The position numbers and the translations under genes were made by a program. DNA of 64,000 bases from Haliovirga abyssi (lineage in GTDB: Bacteria > Fusobacteriota > Fusobacteriia > Fusobacteriales > Haliovirgaceae), in the NCBI RefSeq assembly GCF_030295325.1, contig NZ_AP027059.1, forward strand, positions 310,001-374,000, given 5' to 3'. Below, piece after piece: positions 3,345 to 60,767 of this stretch. Position 1 is the first letter of the stretch, and each line of letters begins with the position of its first letter. The notes under the pieces were generated by a model. That model worked only from the letters and a program-made list of their open reading frames with translations. It ran no database searches and was not told the DNA's origin.

Positions 3345-3387
3345 TAAGAGATAATAGATTATTATAATCTATTATCTCTTATTTTTT
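3342..3387. terminator. Long AT-rich terminator hairpin
   Basis: A 21-bp perfect inverted repeat with arms 3342-3362 and 3364-3384, with a one-base centre (so a few central pairs would open as loop), followed by a T-run to 3387. It lies between convergent genes and can act in both directions. Confidence 0.75.
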
Positions 3388-3395
3388 CATCTAAT

Positions 3396-3534
3396 AGGAA
3401 AGTATAAATTTATTCAGAAAATAAGCTACGCCATTTTTTTGAAATATGCGATTTTTCAAAGCAAAATTTTTCAGAAACCAAAAATTTAGAAAAACATTTA
3501 TGTTCTACCAGATGAAGCGGAGTTTATTTTTTTA
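3396..3534 (+). repeat. C element, full copy
   Basis: About 139 bp beginning AGGAAAGTATAAATTTATTCAG, containing AAAATAAGCTACGCC, a central ATTTTTCAGAAACCAAAAAT segment and ending in GATGAAGCGGAGTTTATTTTTTT. The same order is found near 18170, 33169, and (inverted) 47721 and 47862. The last codons and stop of the minus-strand gene at 3498-3827 lie inside it. Confidence 0.85.
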
Positions 3535-3827
3535 TAAAGTATTATTTCCCAATTTTGAGTTGTATTTTCTAATTTAAAATAGTATGCTATATATGCAATA
3601 GATAAAAGTAGGAATATGAGAAATATTATATATAGAGATATAAAGTTTAAAATTAGAGATAGAGCTAAAAAGATAAAAGTAAATAATATTGTAAACAGCA
3701 TTATGATTAAATGAATTAGTCGTTCGTGGGATAATATAGTTATGGCAGTTCTATGGATATTTATATCTAAATTTTCAGATGTTATGTAGTTGTTATGTTG
3801 TGTTATGAATTCATTTATATTTTTCAT
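3498..3827 (-). CDS. Small two-helix membrane protein, unknown
   Basis: A 109-residue protein that I do not recognise. A polar N-terminus (about 35 residues) is followed by two long hydrophobic segments (about 38-60 and 62-88) and a short polar tail. The minus-strand ribosome site AAGGAGGT lies 9 nt before the ATG, which supports it as a real gene. Its final residues (about SASSGRT) and stop codon are encoded by the adjacent C element, so the original C-terminus may have been replaced. It is the only accepted minus-strand gene in the window. Confidence 0.65.
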   Translation of the reverse strand: MKNINEFITQHNNYITSENLDINIHRTAITILSHERLIHLIIMLFTILFTFIFLALSLILNFISLYIIFLIFLLLSIAYIAYYFKLENTTQNWEIILYKKINSASSGRT

Positions 3828-11358: not shown

Positions 11359-11453
11359 GGAGGGGATTATTAGTTATTTGAATAATAATGGTTATAATAG
11401 TTGTAATTATAACTTTTTAAAAATAGATTTAAAAATAAATATAGGGAAATAGG
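11359..11453 (+). other. AT-rich leader with a hairpin
   Basis: No gene seen. GTTATAAT (11391-11398) and ATTATAAC (11406-11413) form an 8-bp stem followed by TTTTT, a weak terminator-like structure between the consensus promoter and the activase gene. Confidence 0.4.
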
Positions 11454-11656
11454 GAACATTTAAAAAATAAGTTTCTCATTTTTTGTTATAAAAACGCTTA
11501 AAGAACATTTAAAAAGTAATTATATATATTTTATTATAAAAACGATTGAATCGTTGCGTATTTTATAATAAAATGATAAGGTTGTTTTTAAATCGTTCCT
11601 AAACCATTGCGTATTTTAAAACAAAACCAGAAGGTTATTTTTAAGACGTTCCTAAA
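11450..11656 (-). repeat. Nested pair of A elements
   Basis: The outer copy runs 11454-11652 in reverse orientation. Inside its loop is a second copy at 11503-11599 (97 bp), flanked by TAAA on both sides (11499-11502 and 11600-11603). Removing the inner copy and one TAAA leaves an outer copy of 98 bp, the standard length. The outer flanks are TAGG and TAAA. Confidence 0.9.
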
Positions 11657-16557: not shown

Positions 16558-16663
16558 TAAGGAACGTTTAAAAAATAAGTTTCTTATATTTTGTTATAAA
16601 AACGCTTAAATTATTGCGTATTTTAAAACAAAATGGGAATGTTATTTTTAAGCCATTCCTAAA
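16558..16663 (-). repeat. A element, full copy (98 bp)
   Basis: Core 16562-16659 in reverse orientation, with GAACGTTTAAAAAATAAG at one end and TTTTTAAGCCATTCC at the other. Flanks are TAAG and TAAA (3 of 4 match). Confidence 0.85.
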
Positions 16664-16695: not shown

Positions 16696-17961
16696 ATGAA
16701 AAAGAATAAATTAAAAGAAATAAATATTTCTTTATTTGAATTTATATTGGAGTTTGCAGAAATATTTAATTTTATAGATGGAGAAATTCATGGTCATAGT
16801 TACGATGTAGCTTATATAGTGATGAGAATAGTAGAAAAAATGGACTTTAATAATAACGAAAAGTTAGAAATAGTATTAGCTGCTTTATTACATGATATAG
16901 GAGTTTTAAAAGAGAATGAAATGAAAGATTTAATGAATTTTGAAGTTGCAAATACTCAGCGACATGAAAAAATAGGCTTTTTTCTATTAAACAACTATAG
17001 ACCATTTAAAACTGTAGCTTATATAGTTAGACATCACCATATAAAATGGAATGAAAAAATATTAGATGAAGATATCCATATTGGGAGCTATATAATTAGT
17101 CTTGCAGATAGATTTGCTATTTTAATAAATGGAGATAAAAACTATTACAAGAAAAAAACAGAAATTTTAGATATAATAAATAAAGAAAAAGGAAAAATGT
17201 TTTCTCCTGAATTAGTTGATATTTTAAATGAATTAGTTACAAAAGAGGAGTTTTGGCTGAATATAGTATATGGAGATAAAAAAAATATTATTTATGAAAA
17301 TTATAAGGATAAAGTTACCAAAACTGGTTTAAAAGATATTTTGAGTTTGGGTAAAATCATATCTTTTTTTACAGATTCAAGAGATAGATTTACAGCAATT
17401 CATAGTACAGGAGTAGCATATGTGGCAGGAAAATTAGCTAAAATTCTGAACTATAGTGAAAGAGATCAAGAATATTTCTTATTAGCTGGATTTTTACATG
17501 ATATAGGGAAAGTGGCAATTCCCATTGAAATTATAGACAAAAAAAGTGCATTAACAAATTGTGAATTTGAAACGATAAAGAGTCACACTTATCATACCTA
17601 TAGAATACTTGATAGAATAAAAGGGTTTGATGAGATAGCAAAAATAGCAGCTTACCATCATGAAAAATTAAACGGAAAAGGGTACCCTTTTGGATTAAAA
17701 GGAGAAGAGATAACAAAAGAAGCTAGAATAATGGCTGTAGCAGACGTGTTTACGGCGCTATCTGAAAAAAGACCATATAGAGATAGAATGGGGAAAGAAA
17801 AAATAATAGAAATATTGGAAAGTATGGGGAAAGATAATCATTTAGACAAAGAGATAGTTAATAAAGTAAAGGAAAATTATGAAAATCTTGAAAAAATAAA
17901 TATAGAAGTACAAAAAGAAGTTTTAGAAGAATTAAAAATAATAGATGAATTTATTTATTAA
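16696..17961 (+). CDS. Tandem HD / HD-GYP protein, probable c-di-GMP phosphodiesterase
   Basis: A 421-residue protein with no membrane segment. An N-terminal HD domain (about 25-185) has His66-Asp67 in LLHDIGV and the VRHHHIKWNE and SLADRFA motifs. A second, HD-GYP domain (about 215-400) has the HS start, His268-Asp269 in FLHDIGKVAIP, AYHHEKLNGKGYPFGLKGEEI with the GYP triad, and AVADVFTALSEKRPYR. HD-GYP domains hydrolyse c-di-GMP. The N-terminal domain is another HD phosphohydrolase-like unit and may be regulatory. It has a good AAAGGAG site and stands alone between repeats. Confidence 0.88.
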   Translation: MKKNKLKEINISLFEFILEFAEIFNFIDGEIHGHSYDVAYIVMRIVEKMDFNNNEKLEIVLAALLHDIGVLKENEMKDLMNFEVANTQRHEKIGFFLLNNYRPFKTVAYIVRHHHIKWNEKILDEDIHIGSYIISLADRFAILINGDKNYYKKKTEILDIINKEKGKMFSPELVDILNELVTKEEFWLNIVYGDKKNIIYENYKDKVTKTGLKDILSLGKIISFFTDSRDRFTAIHSTGVAYVAGKLAKILNYSERDQEYFLLAGFLHDIGKVAIPIEIIDKKSALTNCEFETIKSHTYHTYRILDRIKGFDEIAKIAAYHHEKLNGKGYPFGLKGEEITKEARIMAVADVFTALSEKRPYRDRMGKEKIIEILESMGKDNHLDKEIVNKVKENYENLEKINIEVQKEVLEELKIIDEFIY

Positions 17962-17965
17962 TTTA

Positions 17966-18171
17966 CTAAGAAATGGCTTGAAAATAACCTTCCGATTTTG
18001 TTTTAAAATACGCAACGATTTAGGAATGATTTAAAAACAACCTTTTCATTTTGTTTTAAAATACGCAATGGTTCAAGCGTTTTTATAACAAAATATATAA
18101 AATTATTTTTAAACATTCTTTAAGCGTTTTTATAACAAAAAAAGAGAAACTTATTTTTTAAACGTTCCTAG
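17966..18171 (+). repeat. Nested pair of A elements
   Basis: The outer copy is 17970-18167, flanked by CTAA and CTAG. The inner copy, 18023-18118 (96 bp), sits in its loop and is bounded by TTTA on both sides (18019-18022 and 18119-18122). Removing the inner copy and one TTTA restores an outer copy of exactly 98 bp. Confidence 0.92.
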
Positions 18172-18308
18172 GAAAGTATAAATTTGTTCAGAAAATAAGT
18201 TACGCTATTTTTTTAAAATATGTGATTTTTCAAAGCAAAATTTTTCAGAAACCAAAAATTTAGAAAAACATTTATATTTTACCATATGAAGCGTATCTTA
18301 TTTTTTTA
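18170..18308 (+). repeat. C element, full copy
   Basis: Starts AGGAAAGTATAAATTTG directly against the nested A pair, contains AAAATAAGTTACGC, the CAGAAACCAAAAATTTAG centre and CCATATGAAGCGTA, and ends in a T-run. Together with the A elements it fills most of the 468-nt gap before pgeF; 18309-18429 holds only AT-rich sequence and the pgeF ribosome site. Confidence 0.85.
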
Positions 18309-18429
18309 TTATGTAACTTAATATGTTGGGTTAAAATTAAAAACAGCAAATTGTGCGATGAAGCAGATATTGTACGAAAGCTTTTTAAGTGATTTTTTAA
18401 AAAAATTATAAAAAATATTAGGAGAAAAA

Positions 18430-22269: not shown

Positions 22270-22983
22270 ATGGATTTGACAATATTAGAAAAAATAGATT
22301 CTACAAATAAATATTTAAAAGAAAAAAAATATAAAAAAAATTGGGAAATAGTAATGGCTAAAGAGCAAACTGCAGGTAAAGGACGTAGAGGTAAAGTTTG
22401 GAATTCTAATAAGGGAGGAGCATGGTTTAGTTTTTGTTTTGCAGAAGATAAATATCTATCTAAAACTGAATATGGAAAGATTCCATTAATAGCTGGATTA
22501 GCAGTAATAAAAGGACTAGAGGAGATAGAAAAATTAAATTATAAAATAAAATGGCCTAATGATGTATATGTAGGAAAAAGGAAAATTTCTGGAATTTTAT
22601 TGGAAAAATCAGGAGATTTTTTTATAGTTGGAATTGGAATAAATGTTAATAATGTTGATTTTGGCGAATTTAAAGATATAGGAATTTCATTAAATAAAAT
22701 AACTGATAAAATTTATAATATAGAAAAATTAGTAATGTTGGTAGCTTCAAAATTTAAAAAAGAATATTATAGATTTTTAAGAGGAGAATGGGAAGAGATT
22801 TTATTAGAAATAAAAGAAAAAAATTATTTAAAAAATCGAGTGGTAGAAGTTATGGTAAATAGTGAAGTTATAAAAGGAGAAGTAATAGGAATTAATAATA
22901 GTGCAGAATTATGTATTAAGAAGAATAATGAAATATATGAAATAAAAAGCGGAGAAATTAGAATAGTATACACTAATAATTAA
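22270..22983 (+). CDS. birA: Biotin--[acetyl-CoA-carboxylase] ligase
   Basis: A 237-residue biotin protein ligase without the N-terminal DNA-binding domain, so an enzyme only and not a repressor. The motifs are STNKYL, the biotinyl-AMP loop AGKGRRGKVWNSNKGGAWFS, KWPNDVYVGKRKISGILLE and the IVGIGINVNN strand. A C-terminal SH3-like domain (about 190-237) follows. It attaches biotin to carboxylase or decarboxylase carriers. GGGAG site present. Confidence 0.94.
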   Translation: MDLTILEKIDSTNKYLKEKKYKKNWEIVMAKEQTAGKGRRGKVWNSNKGGAWFSFCFAEDKYLSKTEYGKIPLIAGLAVIKGLEEIEKLNYKIKWPNDVYVGKRKISGILLEKSGDFFIVGIGINVNNVDFGEFKDIGISLNKITDKIYNIEKLVMLVASKFKKEYYRFLRGEWEEILLEIKEKNYLKNRVVEVMVNSEVIKGEVIGINNSAELCIKKNNEIYEIKSGEIRIVYTNN

Positions 22984-23653: not shown

Positions 23654-23683
23654 TTGACAATTGTAGTGTTGAAGTGGTATTGT
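23654..23683 (+). promoter_or_regulatory. Promoter of the exonuclease-rmlD gene
   Basis: TTGACA at 23654-23659 and TATTGT at 23678-23683, 18-bp spacer; a TATATAAT lies 5 bp further on. An ORF extension that starts at the TTG of this -35 box is therefore rejected. Confidence 0.6.
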
Positions 23684-23740
23684 TTTTATATAATCTTACA
23701 ATTCGTCTGCCACAAAAAAATAAAAAAGAGGTTGGTTTTT

Positions 23741-25414
23741 ATGATATGGATATTTGACATAGAAACAATATTAGATGCAGAATTAATCAGAAAAACAATG
23801 AATTTAGAGGGAACTGATGTAGAAGTAATGAATCTTGCTAAAGATATTTACCAAGGAAAAAAAGGAAATAGGTTTTTGCCTTTGCCATATCATAAAATAG
23901 TAAATATATCAATATTAGGATTAGATAAAGATAAAAATTTTCTAAAATTGAGCTCTATAAATGATGAAGATGAAAAAGAGATAATAGAAAAGTTTTTAGA
24001 TGCTCTAAATAAAAATAATCCTCAAGTAATAACTTTTAATGGGAGAAGTTTTGATTTGCCTGTATTAATGATAAGAGCGATGAAATATTCTCTGAGTTGT
24101 AATACGTATTTTGAGAATGAAAATAGTAAAATAGGAAAAAATAGATGGTCGAATTACAGAGCTAGATATAATGAGAAATTTCATTTAGATTTAATGGATA
24201 GTTTATCAGAATTTGGAGCGGTAAGAGGGTTGAGTTTGGACCTGTTGTCTTCAATGATTGGAGCACCAGGAAAATATGAAGTGAATGGAAGTCAAGTAAT
24301 AGATTTATATTATAATGGAGAATTAGAAAAAATAAAAGAATATTGTGAAAGTGATGTTTTAAATACATATTGGCTTTATTTAAAATATGAAGTTTTGCGT
24401 GGGAATATTACTAGAGAAGAATTTGGAAAAAAATTAGAGATATTAAAAGAAAATTTGATAAAGAATAGGTATTATTTTGAAATATTTGAGGAAAATATTA
24501 ATAAAGAATTAGATAATCTTAATGGCGTTGAAAAAGGAATTGAAGAAGAAAATAAAAAAGAAAATAAAGGAGAAAAAATGATATTATTAACTGGAGCAAA
24601 TGGACAGCTTGGAACAGATTTTAAAAAATTATTTGATGAAAAACAATTAAAATATATAGCTACTGATTATAAAGAATTAGATATTACAAATATAGATAAT
24701 GTTAGAGAATTTGTAAAAAATAAAAATATAAAATATATTATTAATTGTGCAGCATATAATAATGTAGATAAAGCAGAAGAGGAAAGAGATAAGGTGTATG
24801 CTTTAAATTGTGATGCACCTAAAAATTTAGCAATTATAGCAAAAGAGATTGATGCTATTTTTGTTACTTACTCTACTGATTTTGTATTTGATGGAGAAAA
24901 AGGGGAAGCATATGTGGAAAAAGATAAAGTAAGTCCTGTGTCTGTTTATGGTCAAAGCAAAGCTGATGGAGAAAAAAAAGTTTTAGAAGCATATGAAAAA
25001 GTATTTGTAATAAGAACTTCTTGGGTGTTTGGAACAGGTAATAGTAATTTTAATACTCAAGTAATTAATTGGTCTAAAAGTAGAACTGAATTATCTATAG
25101 TAGATGATCAAATATCGGTTCCTACATATTCTTGGGATTTGGCAGAATTTTCTTGGAAACTTATAGAAACAAATGAATTTGGATTGTATCATATTTCAAA
25201 TGACGGAATAGCAAGTAAATATGATCAAGCTAAATATCTGCTTGATAAAATAGGTTGGAAAGGTGAATTAAAAAAAGCTAAAACGAGTGATTTTAATTTA
25301 GCAGCTAAAAGAGCTAAATTTAGTAAATTATCAAGTGAGAAAGTAGAAAAATTAGTTGGAGAAAAACTCCCTAATTGGAAAAGTGGAATAGATAGATATT
25401 TAGGAATGGCTTAA
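23741..25414 (+). CDS. PolB-type 3'-5' exonuclease fused to dTDP-4-dehydrorhamnose reductase (RmlD)
   Basis: A 557-residue single reading frame joining two unrelated enzymes. Residues 1 to about 250 are a predicted DEDD 3'-5' exonuclease (PolB exo-like): DIET near the start, ITFNGRSFDLPVL, LDLMDSLS and YCESDVLNTYWLY. A charged linker (EENKKENKGEK) leads to RmlD from Met280: LTGANGQLG, INCAAYNNVDKAEEE, TYSTDFVFDGEKGEAY, VYGQSKADGEK and RTSWVFG. The reductase makes dTDP-L-rhamnose. A ribosome-site-like AAAGGAG precedes ATG 24578, so the reductase may also be made separately. The final GMA-stop comes from an A element. Confidence 0.85.
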   Translation: MIWIFDIETILDAELIRKTMNLEGTDVEVMNLAKDIYQGKKGNRFLPLPYHKIVNISILGLDKDKNFLKLSSINDEDEKEIIEKFLDALNKNNPQVITFNGRSFDLPVLMIRAMKYSLSCNTYFENENSKIGKNRWSNYRARYNEKFHLDLMDSLSEFGAVRGLSLDLLSSMIGAPGKYEVNGSQVIDLYYNGELEKIKEYCESDVLNTYWLYLKYEVLRGNITREEFGKKLEILKENLIKNRYYFEIFEENINKELDNLNGVEKGIEEENKKENKGEKMILLTGANGQLGTDFKKLFDEKQLKYIATDYKELDITNIDNVREFVKNKNIKYIINCAAYNNVDKAEEERDKVYALNCDAPKNLAIIAKEIDAIFVTYSTDFVFDGEKGEAYVEKDKVSPVSVYGQSKADGEKKVLEAYEKVFVIRTSWVFGTGNSNFNTQVINWSKSRTELSIVDDQISVPTYSWDLAEFSWKLIETNEFGLYHISNDGIASKYDQAKYLLDKIGWKGELKKAKTSDFNLAAKRAKFSKLSSEKVEKLVGEKLPNWKSGIDRYLGMA

Positions 25415-25504
25415 AAATAACATTCCCATTTTGTTATAAAATACGCAATGTTTTAAGCGTTTTTATAACAAAATATGATAACATTATTTTTTAAACATTC
25501 TTTA
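25399..25504 (+). repeat. A element, full copy with exact TTTA duplication
   Basis: Core 25403-25500 (98 bp) from GGAATGGCTTAAAAATAAC to TTTTTTAAACATTC, flanked by TTTA at 25399-25402 and 25501-25504. The internal arms TTTTGTTATAAAA and TTTTTATAACAAAA form a long hairpin. It carries the stop codon of the upstream fusion gene. Confidence 0.93.
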
Positions 25505-33133: not shown

Positions 33134-33161
33134 CCTTACTTAATAGAGTAAGGCTTTTTTT
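33134..33161 (+). terminator. Terminator of the tRNA cluster
   Basis: CCTTACT (33134-33140) pairs with AGTAAGG (33147-33153), followed by CTTTTTTT. Confidence 0.9.
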
Positions 33162-33165
33162 GTTT

Positions 33166-33306
33166 AATGGAAAGAATTAATTTATTTTAGAAAAGAAGAT
33201 ACGCTATTTTTTAAGTATGAGATTTTTCAAGACAAAATTTTTCAGAAGCCAAAAATTTAGAAAAACATTTGTGCTTTACCATATGAAGCGTAACTTCTTT
33301 TTTTGT
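33166..33306 (+). repeat. C element, full copy flanked by a direct repeat
   Basis: A divergent C element (GGAAAGAATTAATTTATTTTAG... GATACGC ... CAGAAGCCAAAAATTTAG ... CCATATGAAGCGTAACTT). The run TTTTTTTGTTTAATG occurs at both ends (about 33155-33168 and 33299-33312), followed each time by an AATTAATTTA stretch, so the border sequence is duplicated. Confidence 0.75.
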
Positions 33307-36260: not shown

Positions 36261-36366
36261 TTATGGAATGGCTTAAAAATAACCTTCCCATTTTTTTATA
36301 AAATACGCAATGTTTTAAGCGTTTTTATAAAAAAATATGAGAACATTATTTTTTAAACGTTCCTAT
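36261..36366 (+). repeat. A element, full copy (98 bp)
   Basis: Core 36265-36362 with flanks TTAT (36261-36264) and CTAT (36363-36366), 3 of 4 identical. It is nearly identical in sequence to the copies at 25403 and 55428. Confidence 0.9.
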
Positions 36367-36453: not shown

Positions 36454-36791
36454 TAGGCGTAAGAGACAGTCGCAGGATGAAATATTCCTGAGGAAAGTCC
36501 GAACTTCATAGGGCAGGAGGGCAGATAACATCTGCTAAGAGAAATCTTAAGGAAAGTGCCACAGAAAATAGACCGCTATTTTATGGTAAGGGTGAAAAGG
36601 TGGTGTAAGAGACCACCGGTGTTTTTTGTAAAAAAAGCAGCCAGGTAAACCCCCTCCGAAGCAAGACCAAATAGAAAAACAGATAGAGCTTGCCCGCTCT
36701 TGTTTTTGGGTAGGTCGCTTGAGGCAGTAAGTAATTATTGTCCCAGATAAATGATTGTCAAATACAAAATTCGGCTTATACTTACACCTAG
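36454..36791 (+). ncRNA. rnpB: RNase P RNA
   Basis: Bacterial type A RNase P RNA, about 338 nt. Conserved blocks in order: GAGGAAAGTCCGAAC, ACAGAAAATAGACCGC, GGTAAGGGTGAAA, AAACCCCCTCCGAAGCAAGACCAAATAG and GAGGCAGT. The 5' end TAGGCGTAAG pairs with 3' CTTACACCTA, which fixes the ends. It is the catalytic RNA for tRNA 5' processing. The first A element of the array begins within a base or so of the 3' end. Confidence 0.95.
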
Positions 36792-37180
36792 GAACGGCTT
36801 AAAAAATTAGTTGCTCTTCACGAAAAAATATGCATGTTTAAGCATTTTTAGAGTGATTAGAGCAAATTACTTATTTCAACGTTCTCTAGGAACGGCTTAA
36901 AAATAACCTTCCGATTTTGTTTTAAAATACGCAATGGTTTAAGCGTTTTTATAACAAAAAATTAGAAATTTATTTTTCCAACGTTCCCTAGGAACGGCTT
37001 AAAAAATTAGTTGCTCTTCACGAGAAAATATGCATGTTTAAGCATTTTTGGAGTGATTAGAGCAAGTTATTTATTTCAACGTTCTTTAGGAACGGCTTAA
37101 AAAATTAGTTGCTCTTCACGAAAAAAATATGCGTGTTCAACCGTTTTTAGAGTGATTAGAGCAAGCTGTTATTTATAATT
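36787..37180 (+). repeat. Tandem array of four A-family elements after rnpB
   Basis: Cores at 36791-36884 (94 bp, variant B), 36889-36986 (98 bp, standard A), 36991-37084 (94 bp, variant B) and 37089 to about 37175 (variant B, right end lost). The 4-bp spacers are TCTA, CCTA and TTTA; the left flank is CCTA. Variant B keeps the ends GGAACGGCTTAAAAA and CAACGTTC, but its inner arms are TTGCTCTTCAC and GAGTGATTAGAGCAA. Confidence 0.9.
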
Positions 37181-37228
37181 TTATTATTGTTTATATTAGA
37201 TAGCTACAAAAATAAAAAGAAAAAAGAT

Positions 37229-47258: not shown

Positions 47259-47729
47259 ATGAAAGAAAAAATTGAAAAAATTATGCAAAATTATAATTAT
47301 AATTTTGATTCAGAAGAATATATAAAAAAAAATATATTAGAAAATATATATTTAACTTATTCAGAATTAAAGGAAGTAATAGAGATTCTTTATGAATTGG
47401 AGTATATAAAGGAGATGGATCTAAAAGAAGTTTTTGAAAGTATAAAATTTGATACAGTTAAAAGTAAAAAAGAAAAAGGAAGCTATTTTCTGAAGGAACT
47501 ATTATATTATAAATATCCACTTTATCAAAAAACAATGAAAAAATTAAAATTTCATCTAAATAAGATAAAAGATTCTAAAATAAAATTAACATATCCTCAA
47601 AATTTAGAGGGAGACAATTTAAAAATTGAAATTACAATAAAAAATGAAAAAGACGTGGATAATATATTGGATAAATTATTAAAAAATAGAGATAATTTAA
47701 AAGATATAATATCATTAATAAAAAAATAA
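47259..47729 (+). CDS. Unknown protein, ParB-like C-terminal pattern
   Basis: A 156-residue charged protein I do not recognise. The N-terminal two-thirds is helical. The C-terminus (LNKIKDSKIKLTYPQN...NLKIEITIKNEKDVDNILDKL) has the strand-strand-helix pattern of a ParB dimerisation domain, but this is only a resemblance. There is no ParB-box or HTH. It follows rimI by 26 nt with a weak ribosome site. Its stop codon lies at the first bases of a C element. Confidence 0.55.
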   Translation: MKEKIEKIMQNYNYNFDSEEYIKKNILENIYLTYSELKEVIEILYELEYIKEMDLKEVFESIKFDTVKSKKEKGSYFLKELLYYKYPLYQKTMKKLKFHLNKIKDSKIKLTYPQNLEGDNLKIEITIKNEKDVDNILDKLLKNRDNLKDIISLIKK

Positions 47730-47855
47730 GCTACGCTTCATCTGGTAAAATAAAAATATTTTTCAAATTTTTGGTTTCTGAAAAATTTTGCTTTGAAAAA
47801 TCGCAAATTTAAAAAAATGGCGTAGCTTATTTTCTGAATAAATTTATATTTTTTG
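47721..47855 (-). repeat. C element, inverted copy 1
   Basis: AAAATAAGCTACGC (about 47723-47736) and GCGTAGCTTATTTT (47820-47833) form terminal inverted repeats around the conserved centre TTTTTGGTTTCTGAAAAATTTTG. Encloses the stop codon of the preceding gene. Confidence 0.9.
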
Positions 47856-47861
47856 AATAAA

Positions 47862-47995
47862 TAAAAAAATAAGCTACGCTTCATCTGGTAGAATAAAAAT
47901 ATTTTTCAAATTTTTGGTTTCTGAAAAATTTTGTTTTGAAAAATTGCAAATTTAAAAAATGGCGTAGCTTATTTTCTGAATAAACTTATAATTTT
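47862..47995 (-). repeat. C element, inverted copy 2
   Basis: A second near-identical copy directly after the first (period about 140 bp), with inverted ends at about 47866-47879 and 47962-47975. The pair fills most of the 294-nt gap before the next gene. Confidence 0.9.
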
Positions 47996-48023
47996 CAAAT
48001 AAATGAAAAAGGGTGAATAAATT

Positions 48024-54998: not shown

Positions 54999-55364
54999 AT
55001 GAAAATACTTGGAATAGGAAATGATATAATTGAGATATATAGAATACAAGAAGCTATAGAAAAAAACAGTAAATTAGAAAAAAGAGTTTATACAGAAAAA
55101 GAGATTGAGTATGCTAATAGTAATAGAAAATATGAAGTGTTGGCTGGCAGATTTGCAGCAAAAGAAGCAATATCAAAAGCTTTTGGAACAGGGATAAGAG
55201 GATTTAAATTAACAGATATAGAGATATTAAATGATGAATTAGGGAAACCGTATGTTAATTTGTATGGTAAATTAAAAGAAAAATATTTAGGTTATAATAT
55301 TATGGTAACAATATCTCATAATAAGAGTAATGCCATATCAACTGCTATAATTTCTTGTGAATAG
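54999..55364 (+). CDS. acpS: Holo-[acyl-carrier-protein] synthase
   Basis: A 121-residue phosphopantetheinyl transferase with GIGNDIIEIYRI, the Mg-binding RFAAKEAISKAFGTGIRGF segment and a C-terminal VTISHNKSNAIST. It attaches phosphopantetheine to ACP for fatty-acid synthesis. It begins 1 nt after rlmA. Confidence 0.95.
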   Translation: MKILGIGNDIIEIYRIQEAIEKNSKLEKRVYTEKEIEYANSNRKYEVLAGRFAAKEAISKAFGTGIRGFKLTDIEILNDELGKPYVNLYGKLKEKYLGYNIMVTISHNKSNAISTAIISCE

Positions 55365-55387
55365 TGTAAAGGTTTTGTAAGAAAGAT

Positions 55388-55547
55388 AATTTCAGCACAA
55401 AGAAAGGAGAACTCAAAGTTACACAAAGGAATGGCTTAAAAATAACATTCCCATTTTGCTTTAAAATACGCAATGTTTTAAGCGTTTTTATAACAAAATA
55501 TGAGAACATTATTTTTTAAACGTTCCAAAGAAAAAAATTATTTAAAA
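55388..55547 (+). repeat. D repeat interrupted by an A element
   Basis: AATTTCAGCACAAAGAAAGG...ACACAAA (55388-55427) continues as CAAAGAAAAAAATTATTTAAAA (55526-55547) after a 98-bp A element. The same D sequence without the interruption is present, inverted, at 60710-60767. The D sequence resembles the accessory CACAAAG/CGCAGAG repeat type. Confidence 0.9.
55424..55529 (+). repeat. A element, full copy with exact CAAA duplication
   Basis: Core 55428-55525 (98 bp), flanked by CAAA at 55424-55427 and 55526-55529. It is nearly identical to the copies at 25403 and 36265. The remaining gap to the next gene, 55548-55726, holds a promoter and no gene. Confidence 0.93.
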
Positions 55548-55640
55548 CTATTGGGTGAATACTGATGAATAAAAATTGAAAGATAGTTATTTTGGATGGA
55601 ATTCTATAAAAATTTTATACTATCTTCTTGTGAATAGAGA

Positions 55641-60709: not shown

Positions 60710-60767
60710 TTTTAAATAATTTTTTTCTTTGTGTAACTTTGAGTTCTCCTTTCTTTGTGCTGAAATT
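60710..60767 (-). repeat. D repeat, uninterrupted copy (empty site)
   Basis: The reverse complement of 55388-55427 plus 55526-55547: 41 bp are exact, and the rest matches with one base of indel. This copy has no A element. Confidence 0.92.

Follow-up and report, generated by a model that had tools for sequence, protein, structure and literature searches.

A 99-bp MITE-like element and its 3-bp target duplication within a dispersed repeat of Haliovirga abyssi

A copy of a dispersed repeat (hereafter D) in the Haliovirga abyssi genome is interrupted by 102 extra bases, which almost certainly arose when a non-autonomous DNA transposon of 99 bp, or MITE (hereafter A), inserted once and duplicated 3 bp of its target in D. 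Taken as a whole, the observations are very probably best explained by the insertion of this MITE into D, presumably moved in trans by a transposase that may since have been lost or may have been missed in our searches. We analyzed a window of 64,000 nucleotides (the whole stretch of DNA under study, positions 310001-374000 of contig C1), which has a G+C content of 25% and lies inside the 2.43-Mb contig of a two-contig, 2.73-Mb genome.

An initial sequence-only reading had paired an interrupted with an uninterrupted D repeat as the filled and empty sites of a mobile element, and both sites are present in the window, with the uninterrupted copy sitting 5 kb from the interrupted one. When 55388-55547 (160 bp) is aligned with the reverse complement of 60710-60767 (58 bp), the sole difference is one 102-bp block. 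The 40 nt at 55388-55427 and the 18 nt at 55530-55547 match 60767-60710 on the minus strand at 58 of 58 bases, leaving no room for the one-base indel that had been described after the junction, and the likeness runs on for about 25 nt further upstream. The parts of the two sites are as follows.

55361..55427, plus strand: left part of the interrupted D, aligning with D copies from about 55360
55425..55427, plus strand: left target duplication AAA, placed by the insertion set and the D alignment
55428..55526, plus strand: A element (99-bp MITE), an imperfect palindrome with inverted ends, placed by the filled/empty pair, 67 insertions, alignment and fold
55527..55529, plus strand: right target duplication AAA, placed by the insertion set and the D alignment
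55527..55592, plus strand: right part of the interrupted D, identical to the 60.7-kb copy up to 55547, with weaker D similarity (ACTGATGAATAAAAATTG) beyond
60710..60767, minus strand: uninterrupted D copy (empty site), with the target AAA at 60728-60730 and 58/58 identity with the spliced filled site

The short match downstream of the junction exceeds chance, since the junction-anchored match is 18 nt long, whereas shuffling the 60 nt that follow the junction 500,000 times never gave more than 13 nt. This 18-mer is low-complexity and A-rich, and recurs once by chance in a gene at 22816, so stronger evidence comes from ten further uninterrupted D copies that align across the spliced junction, in several cases continuing more than 45 nt beyond it. 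The interpretation as filled and empty sites of a mobile element is thereby strongly supported. The many independent D copies without the insert, aligning through the spliced junction, also support D without the insert as the ancestral form. The copy at 60710-60767, which had been taken to show the ancestral sequence directly, is a paralogous D copy rather than the 55.4-kb locus before insertion; as a result, the insertion at the 55.4-kb locus is seen against a paralogue and not against an orthologous empty site.

D has dozens of matching places in the genome and is unrelated to A. Its copies often begin with ...TAGTGTCAAGTTTTTGTAGGG, which resembles the end, TGGTAGTGTCAAA, of an element encoding a 483-aa transposase, and from this resemblance D may contain or derive from the ends of that element. 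Parts of D (CACAAAGAACGCAAAG... and AACCACGGGATAAACATAGATTAA...) presumably recall repeats of many bacterial genomes. The window also contains a second dispersed-repeat family of about 150 bp (TAGGAAAGTATAAATTT...), whose copies are 80-94% alike.

3378-3541, 18150-18315, 33155-33304 and 47714-48010, both orientations: second dispersed-repeat family

The filled/empty pair alone cannot fix the ends of A, because CAAAG flanks the core on both sides and a 97-bp element with CAAAG, a 98-bp element with CAAA, and a 99-bp element with AAA all fit equally. The exact ends that had been read from this pair, a 98-bp element with a CAAA duplication, are replaced by the partition obtained from a tally of oriented element ends at 67 distinct simple insertions. 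An exact 3-bp duplication is present in 55 of these, compared to a mean of 17.7 and a maximum of 29 under shuffled pairing (2000 shuffles); an earlier, smaller set had the exact triplet on both sides in 40 of 45 cases. The base before the triplet equals the last base of the element in 31 of 67 insertions (24.7 expected by shuffling, P about 0.04), which is barely above chance. The extra DNA therefore divides into 99 bp plus 3 bp: the A element occupies 55428-55526 (GGAATGG...ACGTTCC) and AAA is duplicated, and the C and G around AAA at this site (C-AAA-G) are the same bases as those with which the element ends and begins, respectively. It was the insertion set alone that separated 99+3 from 98+4, a single filled/empty pair being insufficient to define ends. 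The 12 of 67 insertions without an exact triplet match are possible cases of decay, partial elements or other events. Among the 55 exact triplets, TTA (26) and TAA (14) are the most frequent, and the target consensus, TAY|TWA|G, is not mirror-symmetric, with A at position -2 in 44 of 55 cases and the triplet followed by G in 32 of 55.

Our census of the A family was built from genome search counts and fetched loci. The exact 15-base left end occurs 116 times genome-wide and the right end has 154 genome-wide matches with up to three mismatches, with reversed controls giving 0 in both searches. Forty near-full-length copies are spread over both contigs, and three of these copies share 98 identical bases. 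At full length, A is an imperfect palindrome with terminal inverted repeats GGAAYG...CRTTCC, and it contains no ORF of at least 80 aa, 99 bp being too short for a gene. The lengths of duplication-flanked elements group at 99, 146 and 199-200 bp, and a few elements measure 51-53 bp. Since these shortest elements still carry duplications, their sequences suggest that the ends alone may suffice for movement.

The larger forms record events within the family. The 199-bp form consists of one A inside the center of another, with TTA flanking the inner copy on both sides; this composite is present at several loci, each with its own duplications, and so most likely moves as a unit. Elements in head-to-tail order, separated by one triplet, are found at 36791-37187 in the window and at two other loci. 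A 146-bp variant, found at no fewer than three loci (C1:414.4, 475.8 and 2019.1 kb), has an unrelated central segment, GGCTCAAGGTTCTTTTATGAAAACCACATAAAAAACTACGCCCAACG, as though the A ends had picked it up and moved it. Representative copies in the window are listed here.

11453..11652, minus strand: second nested form, at an unrelated place
16561..16659, minus strand: full A copy, TTA duplication
17970..18168, plus strand: nested form, inner A at 18023-18119 with TTA on both sides
25403..25501, plus strand: full A copy with a TTA duplication; it lies at the 3' end of the gene at 23654-25414 and now contains the stop codon of that gene
36265..36363, plus strand: full A copy, TAT duplication
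36791..37187, plus strand: head-to-tail A-family array (variant, A, variant, variant) with CTA/TTA separators, directly after the RNase P RNA gene

In the ORF at 23654-25414, a PolB-like 3'-5' exonuclease domain (PF10108) is unusually combined with an RmlD-type domain (PF04321). Immediately before the four-unit array, at 36454-36794, lies the RNase P RNA gene (Rfam), and the array may affect the 3' end of the RNase P RNA transcript.

We searched for the transposase and for relatives of A. In the genome, PF01609, PF13586, PF13359, PF13612 and PF07592 all lack a match that passes the curated cut-off, and no IS5/PIF transposase-coding element sharing the A ends was found. The genome carries eight copies of an IS3-type transposase, three copies of the 483-aa transposase, and no recognizable intact IS5-type gene. 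The ends of the rve-type transposase elements (TGTACCC... and TGGTAGTGTCAAA...) are unlike the A end, GGAAYGGCTTAAAAA, and one A copy on the second contig adjoins a decayed transposase-like ORF. The IS3-type element itself looks recently active from its sequence, as six of its eight copies, distributed over two contigs, share at least 1457 identical bases. A search of the fetched loci for a long ORF between A ends spaced 600-2800 bp apart and bordered by matching triplets yielded no transposase partner. The candidates inspected held ordinary host genes, identified by eye (argininosuccinate synthase-like, isocitrate dehydrogenase-like, and a solute-binding protein), with separate A copies or fuzzy matches to the ends on either side. 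An HD-domain gene at 16696-17961 was likewise rejected as cargo, being flanked by two separately inserted A copies. MITEs need no autonomous partner sharing their ends, and that partner is often lost; the parent transposase of A may be lost from the genome or too distant for the searches used.

The relatives compared belong to the same order as the source genome, in other families. Full-length A was found in none of 40 relatives, and the left-end 15-mer occurs once each in two of the 95 other genomes of the order, which is not above the reversed control pattern; of the 96 genomes of the order, only the source genome yielded the A family. The exact A core pattern had no match in the GTDB or in viral contigs, a set that possibly does not include the source genome, and no A was found in plasmids and phages.

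In the mechanism we propose, a transposase acting in trans would bind ends of roughly 17-20 bp, cut a TWA-like target of the above consensus with a 3-bp stagger and join the element there, and gap repair would then create the 3-bp duplication. An orthologous site without A would be expected to read TTACACAAAGAAAAAAATT at the junction. Because the first base of A is G and its last is C or T, an insertion into TTA would re-create Y-TTA-G at the junctions, allowing the element to insert repeatedly into its own duplicated target, which would explain the tandem arrays. The inverted ends, the constant 3-bp duplication and the movement of 51-bp forms fit a DDE transposase working in trans. By analogy, the 3-bp TWA duplication tips the balance slightly toward an enzyme of the IS5 (IS1031/ISL2-like) or PIF/Harbinger-like type. 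The asymmetry of the target weighs the other way. A MITE moved by some other enzyme, perhaps that of an IS element still present, is a less probable but serious competitor: the genome does hold IS3-type and 483-aa transposases and lacks a recognizable intact IS5-type gene, whereas the ends of the IS elements present do not resemble the A end and 3-bp TWA duplications fit IS5/PIF best.

Placement of A was evaluated using mechanical ORF calls. Most insertions with long flanks (48 of 53) lie outside ORFs, which holds for 67 of 400 TWA sites drawn at random from the window. Where the neighboring genes share a direction, A is oriented along transcription in 31 cases and against it in 11 (P = 0.003). 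Insertions fall at stop codons in 9 of 48 cases versus 5 of 67 random sites, an excess that is suggestive only. We consider it unlikely that A is an orphan, recently active element moved by an unrecognized transposase that makes the asymmetric 3-bp cut at its target and needs about 50 bp with two ends, and that A for this reason tends to lie along transcription.

The intergenic siting and the orientation bias would also suit a structural or regulatory RNA or DNA element, such as a terminator or processing hairpin, spread by recombination, as would the hairpin-like fold of the 55.4-kb copy (RNA-fold z-score -2.5). We regard this as very improbable, since recombination makes no 3-bp duplications of varying triplets, the covariation term of the family consensus fold is about zero, and A matches no Rfam family in the window; the duplications already largely refute it. 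A function acquired by A after insertion is possible. Equally improbable is that the interrupted D is the older form and the 60.7-kb copy lost A by precise excision, as described for PIF/Harbinger MITEs (PMC2836001) and as the identity of both flanks would permit: at least ten other D copies here lack A and only one of 20 inspected D copies is interrupted at this point, so that shared presence followed by loss everywhere else would be far less economical.

With MITE insertion as the preferred explanation, these loci document, to the base, the insertions of a MITE family from a sparsely studied branch of the order, with built-in controls in the form of host-repeat copies with and without the insert. 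The 51-53-bp forms bear on the minimum length that an element of this type may require, and the nested 199-bp form indicates that self-insertion can enlarge a MITE and that the composite can afterwards move as one piece. The points most deserving of specialist attention are the absent parent, the asymmetry of the target and the 51-bp forms.

The A family is new, but as a MITE it belongs to a well-known kind. Like the prokaryotic MITEs already described (Correia, RUP, ERIC and others; reviewed in PMC10969869), which are about 50-200 bp long, it has inverted ends and a target duplication, is non-coding, and occurs in many intergenic copies. Its sequence is unlike anything in the collections searched. 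Correia and RUP elements duplicate TA, in contrast to the 3-bp TWA of A. The REP and REPIN sequences linked to RAYT transposases are, like A, short, palindromic, intergenic and present in high copy number, but they are palindromes without target duplication, whereas A duplicates its target and its inverted ends are long. The closest parallel in target choice is with the Tourist-type PIF/Harbinger MITEs, in which a 3-bp duplication, mostly TTA or TAA, is also made; mPing, for example, duplicates TTA (PMC2836001). A differs from Tourist-type and IS5 elements in its asymmetric target and in that no homologous transposase was found in its genome. The bacterial relatives of PIF/Harbinger form the IS5 superfamily (IS1031 and ISL2 groups), whose target triplets the TWA of A resembles, and IS5/PIF targets, unlike that of A, are typically not asymmetric.
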